From Ceratodon purpureus (Eukaryota; Streptophyta; Bryopsida; Pseudoditrichales; Ditrichaceae): a stretch of 64,000 bases of DNA. Positions within the stretch are counted from its first letter, which is position 1, and every line of letters starts with the position of its first letter. Under the pieces are notes generated by a model. That model searched no databases. It had not been told where the DNA came from and saw only the letters and a list, made by a program, of their open reading frames with translations. Of this stretch, positions 2,787 to 60,065 are shown piece after piece. The translations under genes and the position numbers were made by a program. The stretch covers positions 104,257,281-104,321,280 of the forward strand of contig CM026426.1 of assembly GCA_014871385.1 (NCBI GenBank), written 5' to 3'.

Positions 2787-3278
2787 GTGAGGAGAGTTCT
2801 TTCGTTAGTTAGATACATGAAGGAGAGTGAAGGGTCATCTCCCTCCACTTATGTCACTCCTAAACCTAGAAGAAAACCAAGTGGCACAGATTTTACGAAC
2901 AGAAGAGCGAGGAAGAGGAGAGAATCACGTAGAAAGGTGGAGTCAAAAGGTAACCTTCTAAGTGCACCTCTGAAGGTTCAGGGAGCTCGGCTGCCTTTGG
3001 CACTTAAATTTTGTAGCATTCGTGAATTCATTCTAGAGTCTATAGTAGAGATAAAAGAGGAGGTTTTAGAGGACACCGTAGTTGAGCATCGGGAGCATGA
3101 GGTAATAAGTAGCGCGGAAAAACAGAAAGAGATGACGGAAAAACTAGGGTTCAATTCCAGTCGGACACTTGAGACACCACAACCTTCTTTCGGTTTTAAG
3201 GACTGTTCAATAAGAGGGACGGATTCACAATCGGGCGGCCATTTTAATTCGGATGTGGTAACTTTCCTTCACAACTGA
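2787..3278 (+). CDS. Hypothetical basic protein, probable transposon accessory frame
   Basis: A 163-codon plus-strand frame rich in Arg, Lys, Glu and Ser, with a basic run RRARKRRESRRK that looks like a nuclear localisation signal, ending at TGA 3278. I recognise no domain. It points away from the transposase relic at 1-1200, a layout seen in large Mutator-like elements with accessory genes on the opposite strand. It could be a 5' exon of a longer gene, because a second Glu/Arg-rich frame follows at 3460-3975. Confidence 0.3.
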   Translation: MRRVLSLVRYMKESEGSSPSTYVTPKPRRKPSGTDFTNRRARKRRESRRKVESKGNLLSAPLKVQGARLPLALKFCSIREFILESIVEIKEEVLEDTVVEHREHEVISSAEKQKEMTEKLGFNSSRTLETPQPSFGFKDCSIRGTDSQSGGHFNSDVVTFLHN

Positions 3279-3459: not shown

Positions 3460-4085
3460 GTGAAGATAGCCAATTGGTTTAGGGTTGAACAAGAGGTCGA
3501 AGGTGAGAAGAGGGCACTAGTGGATGCGGGCGACAAGTCCGAAACTGAGACATTGAGAAAAGTGGCTCGGAGAGCAAAACGCGAAATCATGGAGGCGGGC
3601 GAAGGTAGGGAGGCTATGGCTGCAAGACGGGTGGGGCGAGGGGACCCGGGAAGTCCTTCTCAAAAGAGTGTGAAGGAGGACCAATCGCAGGGGAGTATGG
3701 GGGGCTCCGTAGACTACCACAAGTGTGAAGAGAGAGTGAGTTTGCGGATAGATGCCGCGGTCGAGGTAGATGGTGAGGTGCTTGTGGGAGAGGGAGAGGA
3801 CAAGGTGCTCGTGGGAGGGATACTCGTGAGGAAGTATCTGTACTCGCATCCGCGGCAGCGGAGGAGGAGGCGTCCGTTGGGAGTATGCATTCAGAGCGAG
3901 AAGTTGAGCGCGGCGAGGAAGAGATGGAGAGCGCAGGAGGCGAATCGGACAAAGTTGGGGCAACAGAGGAGGTAAGGAATGCGGTTTTTGTTGATGAGGA
4001 TGTGTGGGTGGCCACGAGGTTGGAAGTGGAGGATGCTAAGTTAGTAGCAGATAGATCCGGGATGTGTGAGATTGAAGGTGCGTAG
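3460..4085 (+). CDS. Hypothetical low-complexity Arg/Glu-rich frame
   Basis: Overlapping plus-strand frames (3460-3975, then 3885-4085) encode charged sequence with an RQRRRRRP cluster and no recognisable fold. Minus-strand frames over the same bases are Ser/Pro-rich shadows. Just downstream, two degenerate copies of a CTGCCAATGCCGCAAGTG-type unit occur at about 4093-4117 and 4183-4210, showing local duplication. Coding status is doubtful; it may be accessory sequence of the same decayed transposon. Confidence 0.2.
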
Positions 4086-4239: not shown

Positions 4240-6044
4240 AGTGACGTTTGCCACGTAGACCCCTTTGAGGAGGTGCCACATAGCAAATTGGGAAACTTTT
4301 GAATTTACTTCGCCTCCCCACCCACCTTCTTGTATTTTGAGGGGAGGTGAGGAGGTACAAACCATATGGAATAACCCCCCAAGACCCCCCCCCCCCCAAG
4401 ATCCCCCTTAAGACCCCCCCAAAGACCCCTCAAACATCCTGGTTGCGCCACGTACCCCCGCCCCACTCCTAGCCCCCTAATTAATTAATTAATGCATCAC
4501 AAATGGGGAGTGAGATTTATTTTTATTTTTTTGGAGCAAATGAAATGGGGAGTGAGATTTTGGAAGATAGGTATGTAAAGATTAAAGTCATCAAGAATAA
4601 AATCAATGTATTGAAGTATTGATTTCAGGATAAATGCTTTATTTTTACTGAATACATATATATATACATTTTAGAATTTATCAATTCTACTACTTGATTA
4701 CAAACATGGTAATATTAATTCTTTCTAAAGACATGTAGAGTAAGTATTGTTTGTTTTGAAATCATTTGATTAAAAATTATTGTAATAATTTTTTAACAAC
4801 CTACTAATATTGGTCATTGTTATTAATAAAATTACACACACATGTATAGATATACATTATTTTTCTTTATATATATTCTTTAATGAATATGCAATTACAG
4901 AAGGTTATGAATCAAAAATAAATTCCAGAACCTGTTAGCAGTGCTCTTAGATATTACTAAGTATTCTAGGTAGTAATTTTGTAGGCACGTGAAGTGCATG
5001 GCTTTCCTTGAAATAAATGATATGTATACATATCGACTACTGAATAAATAGGAGCCCATCACATGCATATACATAACAACTGAATCAAACAAATCGTTTT
5101 TATGATTATCATGATTTGTTTTGTGTTATTTGGGTTTTCAAAAACCAAATATTCGCTTTACTTCCATGGTACTTGATTATTATATCTTTATCTCTGAAAT
5201 ATGCTAAATTGTGCGCAAACTCTTGCCCTCATTACACCATTATTATACAAATGAGAGCTGAAAATGAAAAGAATTCCAAACAGTTTATAAACTTCATGAA
5301 CCTCATTTGATATATGTACTTGATTATGACTTTACCTTTGCCTTATAAATTCAAGGTTTAGCCTTAATCAGATTTTTTTTCTTGAATTTTAAGATGTAAT
5401 TTCTTTTCTTTTCATAATTTTATTATTACTTTGTTGATTAATATCCTGTTACAGTAGAAATGAATATCCAAAAGCACAAATACATTACACAGAGTAAAAA
5501 TTGTTAATTTGACTACTTTCTACAAACATTTGAAAAATTTCAAACATCTATCATGTTCATTTGTAAATGAATAAAAATATGAGATTTTAATACACAATAG
5601 ATATAGACATTATCACTTCAAAATCACATTACTTGCTTTTGTTGATTGGGTATTTAATATATATATATATATATACGACATTATATAACTACCGTAAATA
5701 AATTTAACTTATAAGTCATAATTTTATAAAATTCATAGGAATTACTTTGGTATTCATCAATACTGTGCCCTCCTTAAGCTTATTGGTTCATTCAATTCAA
5801 TCTTGTAGGCTTAGAAAATACTAAAAGGCAATAATAATATTTTTGAGAAGGGTATGGATTTATTATGCAAAATTCTTACAAATGCTGAATATTATAATAC
5901 ATGCAACAATCTATTTAAGAGCACAATTGATTTATTCAATGATAAAAAAGAAATAGATTAGTATTTATTTAAATGAAACCTTCCAACAGATATACACGAT
6001 GATGATTTATCATACATAATATATCCAAGTCTAAAATAATACAG
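4240..6044. other. AT-rich dynein intron, left of first visible exon
   Basis: This stretch starts with C-rich runs (about 4370-4465). It then becomes strongly AT-rich, with short AT microsatellites (4660-4675 and 5655-5675). I see no coding signal and no copy of the AAA1 P-loop (GPAGTGKTETT type), so the exon preceding 6045 must lie left of the window. This intron is therefore longer than 6 kb. Confidence 0.6.
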
Positions 6045-8285: not shown

Positions 8286-8645
8286 GTTCTCTCCAAAAAA
8301 GTAATAGCAATTATGGAACTTTCACAAAGGCAATTATCCAAACAAGATCACTATGACTATGGGCTAAGATCATTTGTTATTCCAATAGCAAGAGCTGCTG
8401 GAAGAATGAAAAGAGTGGAGCCAGACTTACCGGAGGATGTAATTTTGCAAAGAGCAATGAGGGACTTGATCAAACCAAAACTTATTTTTGCAGACCTTCC
8501 ATTGTTTAATGCTTTACTTTCAGATCTCTTTCCAGGTGTGGAGTTAGCACCCAAAGAAGCAGATGACTTGAAAAGAGCGCTTGAATTTCAACTCAGATCA
8601 GTAGGCATGCAAATTGTCCCTCTCTATGTTATCAAAATCATTCAG
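8286..8645 (+). CDS. DNAH2-like: Axonemal dynein heavy chain, AAA1-AAA2 linking exon
   Basis: The longest visible exon, 120 codons, phase 0 at both ends. It opens with VLSKKVIAIMELSQRQLSKQ, then DHYDYGLRSF, DLPEDVILQRAMRD and LFNALLSDLFPGVEL, the conserved helical stretch joining AAA1 to AAA2. It ends at IKIIQ|GTGAAA, where the reading frame resumes 42.8 kb away. The SKQDHYD.GLR and DLFP motifs match the DNAH2 class closely. No stops or frame breaks. Confidence 0.94.
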
Positions 8646-8847
8646 GTGAAACCTTGTGACCACATTTTAAAAACAAATTTGATAGTATTCAAATGTAATT
8701 ATTAGAATAAAAGATAATTTATAGTTTGCAAGTGGAATACTGAAAATTCCACTAAGTGTGGGCCATTTCACTTGGAGCAATTTATATTTTTTGAAAATGC
8801 CTCTTTTGTTATGGACCACTCTGATTTAAGGAATCCACGTTTTTTAA

Positions 8848-15766: not shown

Positions 15767-17599
15767 GGGTGATAAAGTTTCCATTATGTTTTTGTAAAAC
15801 TAAGGCCAATTGGTCGTCCGCTTTCTGAGGGGGACGGCCGCTGCTTCTACTTGTATCCTCACCTCTCCCTTCTCTCACTAACTTCCTCTCCTCCCTAACT
15901 CTCTTCCCTTCCTTACACCCTCCTTCCTTGGTAAAATCAAAGTAATCCTAGACCTTCCATTTCTCGACATATAGTCTTCCATATGCAGTCGAAATGAGGA
16001 AGTTTCTGACACATACATTAGTAGGCTAAAGAATGTCCGAAAGATTCTTAGAGATTTGGATCTTATTTATTTTAAAGGGGATATAATGGGAATAGTTTTA
16101 AAATATTCTACTTAATAGTTCTTGGTTGAAGTTTTTAGTTGACGTTGAAGAATAACAGTGGAAAATTTAGTTACAGGAGAGAATCAAAGGAATGAAAATT
16201 GGATGGGGGAGGGAGCAGAGGGTGGTATATAGAGAATATGTATTAAAATTGGAACATTGGAATTAAATAAGGGATAAACTTGGAATTTAAAAATGATTTT
16301 AAATGGAAGAATTTAGAAGGTAAGTTGTAGAGGAAGCAAGACTTTGAAATTAGAATTCAAATAAAATTAGATGGAGGTTGAAATTGTGTGAGGGAGGTTG
16401 GAGGACACATTAATTAGAATTGAGGGTTGTAAATTTGAATTAGAAGTCGAAGATGGTAGACAAAACTTTCATTATAAGTAATAGAAGATAGGAATTTAAA
16501 TATAACAAATTATAGCTCTAACAATAATAAATTAATAAATTAATAAATTAAAAAACCAAGCCATATGACAAGGGTGGAGGTTTAATTTAGAAGGGTGGGT
16601 GAATTTTGAAGGTTTGGGAGTTGACATTAAGAGAAATCACTAGTAAAAAAGCGGTCCTTTATGACTAGTCTTGAAAGCCAAAATGTGGCTCGTATGGGAC
16701 AGATCTTGTCCCATACGACTGTGTCGCAAAATGCAAGTCGCTTCGGACTTTGACTCATTTGGGACAAGTCCAGTCAGCGTCGTCTAGGACAGTGTCCGAA
16801 ACCGAGCCCTGTCACGACGGACCATATGTACAAATGTATTATCCTCGTATAATCAACATATCAGAAAACGGGAGCTATACCTAGAACGTAGTTAATCTTC
16901 CGAATATGGTGTACGTATGTTGGACATCTTGGAACACTAGTAGAAATCTACTCCCTATGTATAGGATAGAGTCTTCAAATCTGAAGAAATATACTCCATT
17001 TCACATGGATTTTTAGGACGTTCACAATGTTCTCATACATAACATTTACAAAATGATATTTCCAATATAAAATCTTCGAATCACATTCAAAATGAAGCCT
17101 GGTTGTTTGATACAATGGATCAAATCTTTGCACCGCATTATAAGGATGGAAAGAATGAATACATGGGCATGCCTTAACATTATGAATACAAACTCTGAGC
17201 CTAACTGGTAAAGCTTGAATTGCTAAAATTAGCTTACAATGTATGTCACTCCTTGAAACAACTTCTTGTATCTAATTCAAAACACACAATTAACACAATC
17301 AGTGCCATGCACAAGAGCCCAAACATATATGACAGACACCACATTCAAAGGTGGAAAGATACTAACCTTAGTTCCATGTAAAATTTCTTTAAAACATGAA
17401 AATACTCAAAGCCACACAAAAGAGGAACAACAAACAGATGTTTCCAATGGAAGTTTAATTTAGATCCTCCTTTAATTTCATAAGTGGAATAATGGTTGAC
17501 AAAAAAATCCCAAGTTACAATTGCTTGGCAGGCAAGAAAATACTAAAACCATTGTTTCGTTCCAAGTGTTAAAATTAGCCACATATGCAGTGAAAATAT

Positions 17600-17955
17600 T
17601 TCAGTACCTGTAAATTGATGCCAAAGAAAAAGAGGCCTTTGTTTGAGCACGCCCTCTGCATGAGGAACATCATTCAGTCCATGCTGTTACGAGTTCAAAT
17701 TATGAAAACGAATCTTACGTCTTTCAACCATTTCAGTTTTCCTTAGGGTATCTGAGGAAACTAGAATGGCGAGAATCCTCCTGATAAAGAGCTTAATACT
17801 CTACAAAGCTAAAAAGACCAAACGCACCTGGACAAGACTTCGAGGCCTCCCCGATATGTGATCCATTCTGTCTTTCGACTTGAACCAGTCCATCCAATCA
17901 GTTTGCAGAAAGGCTCGCCTGCAACCACTGCTCATCAAACAAAACACAAAGATGT
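17600..17955 (-). pseudogene. Exon-like pieces of unknown origin inside CACTA
   Basis: Two minus-strand blocks have plausible splice borders. One near 17838-17918 encodes DWMDWFKSKDRMDHISGRPR and ends at CCAG|GTGCGT. One near 17607-17685 encodes HGLNDVPHAEGVLKQRP and ends at ACAG|GTACTG. They follow the helicase exons in the same direction but do not resemble the GDPKQLPA region expected next in a SEN1 protein, so they may come from a second captured locus or be chance. Confidence 0.3.
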
Positions 17956-18011
17956 GATGTTAAAGATCCAGTCCTAACATCAAATGACGTCTACTATATA
18001 TCAAATATTAC

Positions 18012-20447
18012 CATCACACATCTGGCTTGGGTTTGTTTTAGGAGCTGGAGCGGAATCAATGTTGCTGGCTCAAGAGCCTGCAAAAGCCATTGCAAGTGCA
18101 ATCATAAGATTGACTAGAATTTAGAAAGTACGAATGATAGGAGCAACTAAACCGTAAAAATTGCATTTACACCTGCTTGAAAACATTGAATTCCTGTGAA
18201 TAAACAAGCTTAGCTGTATCTAGTGATATGATGTTTCTATGGGTTGGAAGTTATCTGTAACCCGGGAATATCTCCAAGTCTCAAGCTAATTGAGTCACTA
18301 AAGGATCTAAAAGATTGGTATAAATATCGTCAAATATAAAGAATCCCAACAACGGTAAAAAAATTACCTGGCCAGCTTCGTCAATAACAACTGCACTAAA
18401 GAAATCGTCCTTGACGACTTCTTTCCGAGGTTGGAACTTCTTGGCAGGGATGAACCTCTCCATGCAAGCATGATATACATCTGCTCCACAGCCACTAAGT
18501 GTGGTAAGAACCACATCCGCCTCTCAAATAACAGTCCTCCGCATCTCCTGTAAAGTTTGCACCCAAATAATTTACTGGGACACCAATAAAAGCCAGTAAC
18601 ATATACGACATGGTGCGTTTATGGCCTTGTGCAAATTGAGTTAGAGGTACACCTTCAGTATATCCAAACGAACTTGGATGGACATTTTCCACTCTGTAAG
18701 TAGGATATCCTAAGTAATCCTAGTAAGGATTACTGTGCATAGCTCAAATGCATATCCTCACACATAAGCGAAAGATGGTAGAATATGACCAAATGGTCCT
18801 CGATAACTTCATTGATGCACAAGAACGCAGAAATAAGTAGCACTGATCACTTTTATAAGAACCAATATACTACACCTCACCTGTCGCTTAGTCCATTCGT
18901 CGTCACGAATTGATTTCTCTTCCTTTTTTGCATCTCTTAGCTCAGCATACAACGGTCGCCGCTGCCTAGAAAGCAGTAGAACTTCACACTTAGAATTCCG
19001 TAATAGCCTTATGGTGATACCTACGTAAGCCAAGGCTCTACTCAGCCAGACTGACTGACTGGTGCATGTAACATAGAGCACTAGCCTCGTAATAATACAT
19101 GTCTACCTATTCAACGTATCATTAGTACAATTAATACATCTATTATCCACCCAAACAGATTGCCACTAATAAGGCCTGCATGAAAATTAAAAATTAAAAA
19201 TAAGTATCGACTTGAATACCCGTGAAGCATGTTTAATTTTTCCTGGACAGCAGAATCTCCTTCTTGGACAACACGATTGACCCTCTTTGCTAATTCAGTA
19301 TTCATGTTCTCTGGAATTTCTGAGGCATCCTGTTGACCGCTCAATACATCTCTACTCAGAGGGTCCCCTCCACTTCGTTTAGCGTGAGAGGCCTCCAAAA
19401 CCTGACAAGGAGTTCATTTTACAGCTGTTAAAATGGTAGCTCAGGTTCATTCAATTTCTAAGAAAACTAAAACATGGAGACTAGTGATCCTGAAGGTAAA
19501 TTGTCAACATGGAAAAGCAACAATTGGGCTTAGACAACACATGATATAATGAACATCTTGATACCAACAATTCACTTCCTGAAGGACAACAAGGGACGCA
19601 CCTCTATTGACTCGATAACTTCCTCCAGCTTACAACGAAGCAAACCTATCCTTTGCTGCCAATTACCATCCACCAAAGTAGCACTTCTCTCAGCGGCAAG
19701 CCTCTTCTCCACCACAGTATCAATGAAAATATTCATGGAATCAGGATGAACGGTATTCATGTTTCCAACCCTCACCAAAGAGTGTCGAAAAAATTCTTCG
19801 TCCTTGTCATAAAAACCATCCTTCCACAATCGACCCACCAATTCGTCAACAGCGCCATTAGATTGAGCACACACAAGGATTCTTCGTTTCCTAGACCCTC
19901 CACGGGTCATGGTTGTCTCTTTGGCTTTTTCAAGACCTGATAAACTTTTCCCTTCCGCCACTTATCTCAGCTGCCAGCGCTGCGTCTTGCCAGGCTCTTG
20001 CAACAGCAACAGAACTGGACACACCGCCTCTTACGTTTCTAGATACGCGCGAGTTGTCCTTCTCTGAAACTTTGGACGATTGGAGCTCCCACGCTAGCAA
20101 CGCACTGACAATGCCTACGATTGTTCGAGTTTTACCTGTACCTGCTCATTCAAATGAACAATTCAGCACTTTCTGACTCAAGGCCAAAACAGAGAAGGCC
20201 TGTAAACACACGAGTGTCGAAGCACCACAACCCATTCTGGAAGCACATTGCACAATATCAGGTAAGCTGAAAGCCTGGTCAAAAATTTTGCAAGAACACA
20301 GGGTAATCAAAAAACATGATTTCTCAAGTGATAACCCTCAACCTTCCCTCCTGAAACTTTCGAAGAGATATGGAACTTACCAGGAGGTCCTTGCACCAAA
20401 GCGAGTTGGTGGGCTTCTGCGGCAAGATCTAGCTTCCACCACTCCAA
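18012..20447 (-). pseudogene. Captured SEN1-like superfamily-1 RNA/DNA helicase fragment (first RecA domain)
   Basis: Spliced minus-strand exons: 20447-20381, 20141-19602 (with a frame change near 19940-19960), 19401-19220, 18965-18881, 18547-18368 and 18077-18012. They encode LALVQGPP then GTGKTRTIVGIVSALL (Walker A, split by a phase-1 intron), SVAVARAWQDAALA, RILVCAQSNGAVDELV (motif Ia), VVLTTLSGCGADVY, FSAVVIDEAGQ (Walker B, DEAG) and ALEPATLIPLQLL. The order and wording match plant SEN1/senataxin-type helicases of the Arabidopsis At4g30100 kind, which act on R-loops and transcript ends. An in-frame TGA sits just before EADVVLTTLSG, and motifs after LQLLKQ (GDPKQLP onward) are missing. This is a dead partial copy captured by the CACTA element, not a working helicase. 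Confidence 0.88.
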
Positions 20448-21204
20448 CTGCTTTCATCACTGGGAGCAGGATGAGAATATCCTGTATGACTGTCAATGTA
20501 ATGAGCAATTCGCAACTTAAATTGAAGATGAAAGCATCAACCCTAAACCTCCAAACAAAAACCCAAAACCTCCAAACAAAAAACCCTAAACCCCTCATTC
20601 TCCCCCCTCCTCCTTCACCTCACCTCTCTCGACCAACTGCCTCGAGCTTTTCTTCCACTTCGTCTCCACTTCATTTCCCTTCAAATCACTCGGAGAAAGC
20701 TTGAAGAACAGGGGGAAGAATTTCACTCCACAAACCTGCAAATTAGCAACTCAAGTTCGGGCAAAGTTATAAGTGCAAATTAATTCCGGGTTAGAGCAAC
20801 TTGGAAAGCAGTTTGCTGGTCAGATGTGATCACCAGCAACAGATCACCTGTTCGGACTGTTGGAGGTCGGAAGACTATACATAATCTCAAAATCTACAAT
20901 TATACTCTCATATTGAAATGTATCTATACAAAACATGTCCCAAGAATTTAAATTAGATACATTGATGCGACTAGAGTGAACATTTTAGACATATCTATGT
21001 GTATTGTAATTATGCACATGACGATGCAGTCTGTTATGATGAGTGTATTGAAAATATGTCCGAAATGACATAGTCATACTGGACAAAAATTGCCACGTGA
21101 GTCGACATAGTGCTGTGAACCTCCCTTGCGCCATTTTCTAGTCATATGGGACCACATCGGATTCAGGTGCTCATCATCTCGGACCGGGATTTCTACTAGT
21201 GAAT

Positions 21205-37658: not shown

Positions 37659-40461
37659 CTATAGCTGACAAACAATCGATTTCCAAGGGCATTCCAAAAA
37701 GTCTTTACAGCGCCCCAGTTTAAATCCCTGTCCGTCATCTACTCTACGGAACACTGGCGTCCCTTCCATCGGGGAAACAAAACCAGAACTGATCTCTACC
37801 TTGATCCTCTTCAGACGACCAAGTGTTTGATTAAACTCCGTGATTAAGTGCTGCATTATTACGGTATCCCTTGTAACTTCTTCTACTAACAGCAGCACTA
37901 GATTCTCCATTGCCGAAGGTAAATCCACCACCCTCTCTCCAGTTAGAGTGGGTCTGGGAACAATAAGTGGTGTATTGGACTCAGAAGGCGCAGAGAAGTG
38001 CTCTCGTCGTGGAGTAAGCAGCTGCTGTAGACCCCCGATGACATTGCCAGCCAACCGGCCACAGTAACGAGTAATAGTACCTTCTGCAATCTCAGGATGC
38101 ATCATCATAACAACCTTCACATGATGCTTACACATGTTGCCATGTTGTGCCCAGATACAATTGCAAACACCTCACTCTGACCCCAGATTATATACCGTGT
38201 ACCTCATGTGCCGATGCTCTATAGAGGTAACCAATGCAATGTCACCGTCCTCAACCGGTAGTGTCACATCGTCATCTAGTATCGCCCTAGCCTTTAAAAT
38301 AGATTTGACAACACAGTCTTGCATCTTCTTATTATCAATGAACTCCTTTTCTTTACGGAGATCCTTATACCAATAGTGGTCGAAGACATCTTCAGTCAAG
38401 GCAGTAATACACCAGTCCACCCTCCCCCCTATCATTCTACTCATTTGTGATTTCAAAATAGACTTTGCAAAACGGTGATATCCTTCGATAGCCGCATTAG
38501 TATCATGGCCACAGTAACTAAGGTTACGGAACCCCACTACCCACATGTGCACTTTGTCTAGCCATTGAGTCCTCATATAATCTCGAAACTCTACCTCTCC
38601 TGGATATGTTTTTGCCAGCTCTTCAATGTGCTGTTCAGCCCATGCACTACCCTCTTCTCCAGATGGTGAGGACCGATCGTACATGAGCATTCCTAGGTCT
38701 TTCATAATAGCTGCCCTACGGGCCAAATTGGATATCTTGTAGCAAGAGTTTTTCTACCACGCGCGTTGTACATGCCATAAGCACAGAAACAGTGCCGTAC
38801 CAGGCCATGTTTCACTGTCAAAATATACACTCATATATCAAAAATTAGATGGTCTTTAAACCTTTCGTAGAATATAACAATGCTGTACATTACATACCAG
38901 TGTCATAGACATCAATGAGTGTTAGAGAGTGAGGTGAATGTAAAAAAACAAACTGAGCTATCAAGGTGGGATGGATGCTTTACTTGATAGCCTTGATCTC
39001 TCCTTGGGCACAATCGACAATGAATGCTGAAGGCTCCCAATCCGGCTTCTCTTTGACCATCTGTTTATTCAGTGCTTTCATCTAAGGTGTCGGATCTGTC
39101 TGAGCACACCTCGACGTAAGAACAAAAGCCACCGGTATTCCATGGTGCCACTCATCAAAGACCATGAGTGTATAAAGCAAAAATTGGTCGTGACATAGGG
39201 AAAGAATGTCAGTGTCACAACAGATCCAGCAAGGTAATGAAATTGTACCGATAGGGGAATAGTATACTTTTAAGGAAAACAAATATAAGAGCATTCAAAA
39301 GCACCAGTTCAGAGTATCGTAAATGTAGATTACCTTTTTGTCATTGGTTCCAAACGTCGCATCAATTAATATCCCTCCTCTATGCCCATATTTAAGCATC
39401 ATTTCCTTCCGCCATGTTGTCTGTATCCCAAAATGTGAAAGGCATGTTCTCGCTCGTCAACTCACCTGGAACCTTCTCTAGTTTTTTTTTATTTGACTCA
39501 TTGTAGTAAAACACCTTTTCTAGATTACGCTACACCCACATCCTAACTTTGAGCGTCATTTTTGTACAACATATATGTTTCTTGGGCTAACTTACCCGAA
39601 ATATTCCATATATCCTTAGTACTCAGAAGAAGATCCCGCATAATATCCTTGCCCTCAGCCTTGTACTTCTTCAAGAGATCTAAAATGTTTTCTCATTATC
39701 TGCATGGGACTGTTATCCCTCCTTAGACAATCCTCTACAAATGCCCTGATTTCTGGAGACAGATGTGCCAAAAAAGCACTTCGCTCTCCCACTTTCATCC
39801 CGCCATGCACAACTAGACCATCAAAATTAACATGCTTCTCCTGGATTATGGTAATCTCTAATACATGCGGCAGGTACAAGAAGGTCTTCACTGTAAATTG
39901 CGCTTTGCATCCCCTTTTAATGGATTGTTCCCATTTCTTCTTCGAGTCCCTCTCAATTTTCGGCTTCTTCGTCGCAGTCTTCCCCGTGTTTGTCCCCTCC
40001 TGTCCTGGGAATGTTGCATCAGCCTCTACGAGGTTCACCACTTCACCGAAGTTGTCCTTGAATGGGGAGTCCTCCATTTTAATGTCACAGTCAGGAGATA
40101 CACCGATGGGGACGTTGCCACTAGTGCCTCCCTCATGAATTAAATTACCTGCAATAACTGATTCCAGTCGATCGACGGAAATGTGCGACCGGGGTAACAA
40201 AATAGGAGCAGCACTTTGACAGCATTCCGAATCCTGCGAAGACAATGTTTCATGTTGTACAGAGGAGACACAATTTGATGTCGCGGAATTCCCAGAAGCC
40301 GCAAGCTCAATGTTCGGAACATTACTTGGCAGACATTGTTGAGGAACGTTGAGGACACCCTTTTTCCTTGGACCACGTTTCTTGGCAGTTTTTCCCGGAG
40401 CATGGTCCGTCATCACAACTCCTTGACCGGACATGGCGACATTGTCATTCCCCACGTCCAC
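37659..40461 (-). pseudogene. MULE transposase (MURA-like) with SWIM zinc finger, decayed
   Basis: Domains in order on the minus strand: a Lys/Gly-rich N-terminus; a DNA-binding block KRGCKAQFTVKTFLYLPHVL (about 39850-39910); catalytic blocks LIDATFGTN near 39350, YTLMVFDEWHHGIPVAFVL near 39130-39190, and FIVDCAQGEIKAI near 39000; then the C-terminal NLSYCGHDTNAAIEGYHRF near 38470-38530 and a SWIM finger CNCIWAQHGNMCKHH near 38115-38165. This is the architecture of Mutator transposases, which cut and paste DNA carrying their TIRs. Interruptions include a TAG before MKALNK and a TGA before GVCNC. The block order suggests at least one intron (donor after GTNDKK). Confidence 0.85.
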
Positions 40462-40518
40462 ATCTAATACGTTGCCATTGCTTTTGGAACAGTTGGAAAG
40501 GGCGTCGCAGGATGCCGT

Positions 40519-59306: not shown

Positions 59307-59686
59307 GGCATGATGTTGAGAATCTAGAAATAATTGTTTATGAACAAAGTTCGAATGTCAAATTCCAAATAATTAAAAAAGTCGCCAACAGTTGGAAAAT
59401 ATTCATGGAAGTAACAAATGTATGCGAGTGATGAAAATGCTATTGGATCAAAGGCTTAATAGGAGTTTTAACAAAAGTTAATTTCAAATAAGTACACATG
59501 CAATATTGTAAGTGGTGTGGTAACAGGAGGTGACAATCATTTGTTCTTCCTATTGTACTTCGAGTAACTTGCAATAATCTCAACTTATAAAATTTATTAG
59601 TAGTTTAAAAAAATAAAAAACAGTCGTTCTCAAACGGTTTATACGGTACCTGTTAATTTATCTTTTGAATTTATCTTTTGAATCAG

Positions 59687-59982
59687 ACAATATTGGACCA
59701 GATACGGAAGCTGCTGCTACAGTATATTGATGCTGCAACAACAGTGCGCTATAAATGTGCTGAAACCATACCTATAGAGGTTCTCAACAGTTTGATGACA
59801 TTATCTAAACTTTTTGATCTCCTAGCTGTTCGTGAGAATGGAGTTCATCAAGGAGAAGGAGAACACTTTATACCCACTATTCAATCCTGGTTTCTATTTT
59901 GTTTAATTTGGTCAGTTGGAGCAAGCGTTGATGAGCCCGGACGCAACATATTTGACCTCTGGTTGCGCGACCAAGATCCAAG
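59687..59982 (+). CDS. DNAH2-like: Axonemal dynein heavy chain, AAA2-AAA3 linking exon
   Basis: Ninety-eight codons plus two bases: TILDQIRKLLLQYIDAATTV, PIEVLNSLMTLSKLFDLLAV, RENGVHQGEGEHFIPTIQSW and FLFCLIWSVGASVDEPGR. The ENGV followed by F.F..IWSV.ASVDE.GR wording is specific to the DNAH2 class; other classes read FVFCYLWSLGGN or similar. The acceptor is GAATCAG, the donor CAAG|GTCAAG (phase 2). The split Arg codon is completed by the first base of the next exon. Confidence 0.93.
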
Positions 59983-60065
59983 GTCAAGGGATAGAACAAG
60001 GAAAACCAATCTAAATTTAAATAAATTAACATTATAATATCATAAGTATTGTGAAGTTGCCTCAT

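Follow-up and report, generated by a model that had tools for sequence, protein, structure and literature searches.

The element at positions 16638-21201 of the window, by which we mean the whole 64,000-nucleotide stretch of Ceratodon purpureus DNA that was analysed, is very probably a Pack-CACTA transposon that was built by template-switching repair, contains fragments from several host genes, has no recognised transposase, and is now silenced and decaying. Fragments of a SEN1-type helicase gene and of an EDR2-like gene lie inside CACTA ends, that is, host DNA of the kind that defines a Pack-CACTA.

Element borders and the surrounding dynein gene

The features that delimit the element and place it within its host gene are as follows.

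8286-8702, plus strand: dynein heavy chain exon (domain match, AAA_6, 2.6e-31)
16635-16637, no strand: left target-site duplication AAT (read from the letters of the window)
16638-21201, no strand: CACTA element without recognised transposase, 4564 bp (CACTAG/CTAGTG ends, AAT duplication, sister copy L009)
16638-16666, plus strand: left terminal inverted repeat (degenerate in the window copy; CACTAGTAGAAATCNCGGTCC-like in the short sister copies)
21173-21201, minus strand: right terminal inverted repeat (comparison of copy ends)
21202-21204, no strand: right target-site duplication AAT (letters of the window; empty site in L011)
59669-60034, plus strand: dynein heavy chain exon (domain match, AAA lid, 4.2e-17)

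The element starts with CACTAGTAAAAAAGCGGTCC and ends with GGACCGGGATTTCTACTAGTG, with CACTAG at both ends and AAT flanking it on each side; sister copies have related ends. One sister, L009, is 97.2% identical over the full length of the element and has the same borders, with a TTA duplication. In all 12 copies that retain two ends (the window copy, L009, L012 and L014-L022), the 3-bp target duplications match by eye (AAT, TTA, CAT, TTT, TGG, GAT, AAA, ACT, AGG, ACA, TCA and TAT); L019 and L022 each have one altered terminal base of the element itself. The window element was inserted in a repeat, a second copy of which, at about position 7737 of L011, is uninterrupted at the same point. The flanks align with this empty site at 87.7% and 90.0% identity, and its single target is ACT, against AAT in the window. 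Hence the borders proposed in a sequence-only reading, CACTAG ends with an AAT duplication, are borne out by both ends, by the 12 duplications and by the empty site. The same evidence bears on the idea that the copies arose by segmental duplication or as an assembly chimera, without any transposon capture: the presence of 13 of the 15 copies on one large contig would suit it, but the differing duplications of the two-ended copies and the empty site contradict it, and its probability is negligible.

The longest open reading frame within the element, of 175 aa, overlaps the captured block. Transposase_21 domains (PF02992) are abundant in the genome, with 1940 candidates, of which 150 were scored and those listed were all above the cut-off; many of the domains at the 150 scored loci sit in open frames of more than 500 aa. 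None of the PF02992 matches at the 150 loci scored of these 1940 was tied to elements bearing these ends, and no autonomous partner sharing them came to light, which counts against our explanation. At L039 (positions 1-651), L044 and L049, right ends of related CACTA elements lie next to similar open reading frames; the frame is 217 aa long in L039, where it had no Pfam match. By eye, a Tc1/mariner-like frame lies next to a CACTA right end in L041 (933-1745, minus strand), and frames resembling a MULE-type transposase occur at positions 37659-40518 of the window (minus strand).

The element sits between the two dynein heavy chain exons, which are on the plus strand, and the helicase exons are on the opposite strand, so the antisense geometry described earlier was right. 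A Walker-type pattern scan of the plus strand showed no further dynein exons between 8702 and 59669. Should the first AAA_6 match be part of this dynein gene, its AAA_6 domain would extend over approximately 57 kb with one 54-kb gap (window 8286-60034; C6:104209179-104265967); at seven other places with this domain the span is about 1.5-4.1 kb. Giant introns in a dynein gene of what is probably a sex chromosome would recall the Drosophila Y genes kl-2, kl-3 and kl-5.

Host-gene pieces inside the element

Between its ends the element contains the following recognisable pieces.

17380-17989, minus strand: EDR2-like gene fragment (donor on contig C9, L060 3277-3891, 93%)
17990-18003, no strand: filler of about 14 nt between the EDR2-like and helicase blocks (junction alignment)
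18004-20437, minus strand: captured SEN1-type helicase block with introns kept (donor on contig C13, L010 3467-5919)
18012-18077, minus strand: helicase exon f (window against parent exons)
18368-18547, minus strand: helicase exon e (window against parent exons)
18881-18965, minus strand: helicase exon d (window against parent exons)
19220-19401, minus strand: helicase exon c, with a deletion against the parent (comparison with parent)
19602-20141, minus strand: helicase exon b, with a frame-breaking insertion (comparison with parent, translation)
20381-20437, minus strand: helicase exon a, last 57 bp only, ending LVQGPPG (comparison with parent)
20431-20483, minus strand: second EDR2-like fragment (L060 196-248, 89%)
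20480-20541, minus strand: third EDR2-like fragment, out of donor order (L060 1879-1940, 92%)
20606-20799, no strand: piece common with a dispersed family found at seven places on C2, 6.68-7.09 Mb (sequence matches)

The largest piece, 18004-20437, is 96.5% identical to C13:60466-62909 over 2457 aligned columns, introns included. This agrees with the initial view that SEN1-type exons were captured on the minus strand together with their introns, and the parental SEN1 locus that this view predicted in the same genome is thus found on C13, with intron-level similarity. The match is limited to 18004-20437 and both of its limits fall within the element; helicase exons had been expected to stop short of the CACTA borders, and a blastn comparison of the rest of the window with the fetched parental locus produced nothing at E<=1e-3. 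The captured copy extends 9 nt beyond exon f, and the block begins at L010 position 3467 in every fetched copy that reaches that point, L013 falling short of it. Seven exons had originally been counted; comparison with the parent gives six segments, the first of them partial (its last 57 bp), which rules the higher count out. When joined, the parental exons form an open frame of 372 aa that matches AAA_11 at 6.7e-45. The C13 locus also matches AAA_12 at 4.3e-30 and SEN1_barrel at 1.4e-5 (25.5 bits, under the cut-off of 27), and its best PDB sequence is Sen1 (5mzn, 6e-30).

Exon-border GT and AG are retained in the window copy and L009, as might be expected if the helicase fragment were expressed and selected as a new protein, but the joined captured exons contain 20 stops in the window copy, 20 in L009, 16 in L011 and 2 in L012, and codon positions 1, 2 and 3 of the window copy carry 11, 5 and 6 changes. 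With the frame broken in each of the four long copies translated (the fifth, L013, is a fragment and was left out), we rejected a domesticated chimeric gene, which is scarcely credible.

Three pieces of the window element, along with others in L012, correspond to a single C9 locus (L060); the two small ones of the window (53 and 62 bp) lie in an order reversed relative to this donor. Two exons of the donor, joined, match EDR2_C at 2.3e-7 (31.3 bits, cut-off 24.7), a single exon frame scores 23.8 bits, below that cut-off, and the other L060 frames tried gave no informative domain match. In L012, additional C9 DNA (L060 2737-2914 and a stretch starting at 3232) takes the place of the helicase DNA that in the window corresponds to 5412-5919 of the parent. 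Positions 16860-17379 have partial matches on C11, C6 and elsewhere. Finally, nine of the ten short elements of the family (L014-L022) contain an EXO70 fragment of approximately 770 bp, in two parts in one of them, and L023 contains a short part. This fragment, at L015:3722-4488 and similar in L014-L022, has two near-equal donor loci on C10, which match it at 95-96%, and an L015 frame matches Exo70_C at 1.3e-16. The capture of a helicase stands, therefore, but not as a single capture: the window element is a mosaic of at least two donors, and probably of three.

Copies, junctions and the order of capture

At least 15 elements with helicase DNA were found, five long and ten short. The long copies (the window copy, L009, L011, L012 and L013) are all on contig C6, while the short copies (L014-L023), in which only 140-142 bp of helicase DNA is left, comprise eight on C6, one on C3 and one on C4, making 13 of 15 on C6 overall. 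L011 is without its left end and L013 without its right one, and L023 gave a match at neither end. The right end of L023 may be L035, some 17 kb off, the element being apparently split by about 16.6 kb of other DNA (C6:109.84-109.86 Mb). The right end of the window element (20800-21201) has 40 matches, some weak or doubled, of which 26 are on C6.

At the junctions between captured pieces, neighbouring donors overlap by 5 nt at 20437, by up to 4 nt at 20480-20483 and by 2 bp at both edges of the EXO70 piece, these being raw lengths; in L015 the C10 match runs from the end of the C9 piece to the start of the helicase piece, overlapping each by 2 bp. Such overlaps are short (2-5 nt), which counts against a template-switching reading, yet together with the 14-nt filler they favour template-switching repair over the tandem-insertion route proposed for Arabidopsis Pack-CACTA in the parts of PMC13317346 and PMC8903248 available. 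That route would start from two CACTA copies lying side by side in or close to a gene, which lose the ends that face each other and then move as one, along with the DNA between them. We regard this as unlikely here: on either side of the helicase block lie EDR2-like pieces and no transposon ends, the 53- and 62-bp pieces are out of donor order, and the EXO70 piece takes the place of internal DNA, overlapping its neighbours by 2 bp.

Under template-switching repair, the most probable sequence of events begins with an ancestor element that took in parts of the C9 EDR2-like gene. During subsequent repair of a break or gap inside that element, synthesis would have switched through short homology to the SEN1-type gene on C13, of which at least 2.45 kb would have been copied. 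Transposition, with a transposase presumably supplied by other CACTA elements, would then have produced at least three lineages, namely the window type, the L012 type and the short form, the last of which would have lost most of its helicase DNA and had the gap filled by the EXO70 piece. The copies would now be silenced, decaying passengers, the one in the window lying between dynein heavy chain exons.

Divergence bears on the order of these events. Differences from the parent in helicase introns number 37/1321 in the window copy, 44/1317 in L009, 36/1141 in L011, 36/1034 in L012 and 25/599 in L013; in exons the values are, in the same order, 22/1109, 23/1109, 23/1101, 24/910 and 10/133, the last of which is out of line with the other copies and counts against our explanation. 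Set beside 46/1021 between the helicase introns of the window copy and L012, these intron values suggest that the lineages parted soon after capture, as does the small number of sites at which four copies agree against the parent (5 in 1730 columns; in another tally all four depart from the parental base at 6). Relative to C9, the EDR2-like segment has changes at 40/610 positions in the window and 45/611 in L012, and those two copies differ from each other at 27/608. As 40/610 exceeds the 37/1321 of the helicase introns, the EDR2-like capture would be the older, unless C9 evolves faster; a faster-evolving C9 locus could mimic an older capture, and this also counts against our explanation. In the left transposon segment the window copy differs from L012 at 52/704 positions and from L015 at 45/733, so is nearer the short forms. 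Since this segment differs more than the captured blocks and no single simple tree accommodates both, exchange between family members is likely. Two independent helicase captures were considered, the block reaching L010 5919 in the window and only 5412 in L012 and L013, and were set aside because the common start at 3467 and the common C9 junction fit one capture with later deletions.

Decay, chromosomal setting and relation to known elements

Changes against the parent in the window copy, L009, L011 and L012 comprise 57 C:G>T:A, 16 T:A>C:G and 39 transversions. Among the C:G>T:A changes 24/57 are in CG, a context that holds 15% of the C and G positions of the parent (binomial p 7e-7); this background covers the whole 2453-bp parental block, and the changes come solely from columns shared by all four copies. 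On the individual branches CG sites account for 4/9 of these changes in the window copy, 5/11 in L009, 3/8 in L011 and 10/20 in L012, and the common stem of the first three has no CG excess (1/7). Methylated DNA leaves an excess of C>T at CG sites, and this bias therefore suggests that the copies are or were methylated.

The CpG ratio is 0.72 in the parental block, 0.65 and 0.85 in its two flanks and 0.61-0.66 in the copies; comparison of block and flanks by this ratio gave no trace of methylation at the C13 parent. It had been suggested that antisense transcripts from the dynein gene could generate small RNAs against the parent helicase; in the form weighed here, such RNA would pair with helicase RNA and the resulting small RNAs would depress the C13 gene. 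The orientation of the helicase segment opposite to the dynein exons, its high identity to the parent and the CG-biased decay, suggestive of methylated copies, are what such action in trans would predict, but the parental ratio lies within that of its flanks, with no spread of methylation to the parent, and in the lack of a matching CpG loss there the small-RNA effect is unsupported. We consider it improbable.

The window lies on contig C6, which accounts for 110.5 Mb of the 362.5-Mb assembly, and we infer that C6 is a moss sex chromosome. C. purpureus is reported to have a genome of 360 Mb in which U and V each exceed 100 Mb and jointly make up about 30%, and an RWP-RK gene is located on the U (PMC8000587, in part). 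One short RWP-RK match on C6 (C6:49062458-49062535) may help to tell U from V; a size of 110.5 Mb is attributed to the Ceratodon V. It is conceivable, and in our estimation very improbable, that helicase-fragment copies lying nearly all on one sex chromosome yield small RNAs in one sex only and so tune an autosomal SEN1-type gene differently in males and females.

Elements of the Pack-CACTA kind are already known from seed plants; the present case is from a moss and is closest to Tgm-Express1, a CACTA element of soybean that lies in intron 2 of F3H and carries five fragments of host genes (PMC1947982, as excerpted). Both have CACTA-type ends, both hold several unrelated pieces of host genes in which exons and introns are present, and both lie inside a host gene. 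The Tgm-Express1 fragments are spliced into the host transcript, whereas the window helicase exons are antisense to the dynein gene, and helicase DNA occurs in at least 15 elements of the present family. In Arabidopsis, rice and maize, Pack-CACTA elements likewise have CACTA ends and genic pieces in the excerpted account (PMC8903248), with some elements multi-locus; target duplications are 5 nt in the rice and maize CACTA set and 3 bp here, and the internal junctions of the present family are better matched by gap filling than by tandem insertion. For animal Pack-TIRs, gap-filling and FoSTeST models with template switching and a median microhomology of 2 bp have been described (PMC8277862, in the sections available), and template switching with short microhomology is a likeness to the present family; those are from other hosts, whereas here several donors on other contigs feed one multi-copy family. 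No moss Pack-CACTA was found in the Pack-CACTA literature searched, a weak negative.

Since a single family preserves legible donors and junctions, an empty site and three descendant lineages, published models of gene capture by DNA transposons become directly comparable in a moss. Its contents are layered, with EDR2-like DNA first, SEN1 next and, in one branch, EXO70, which lets the order of capture be tested against related genomes; if C6 is a sex chromosome, the family also shows where such transposon debris gathers.
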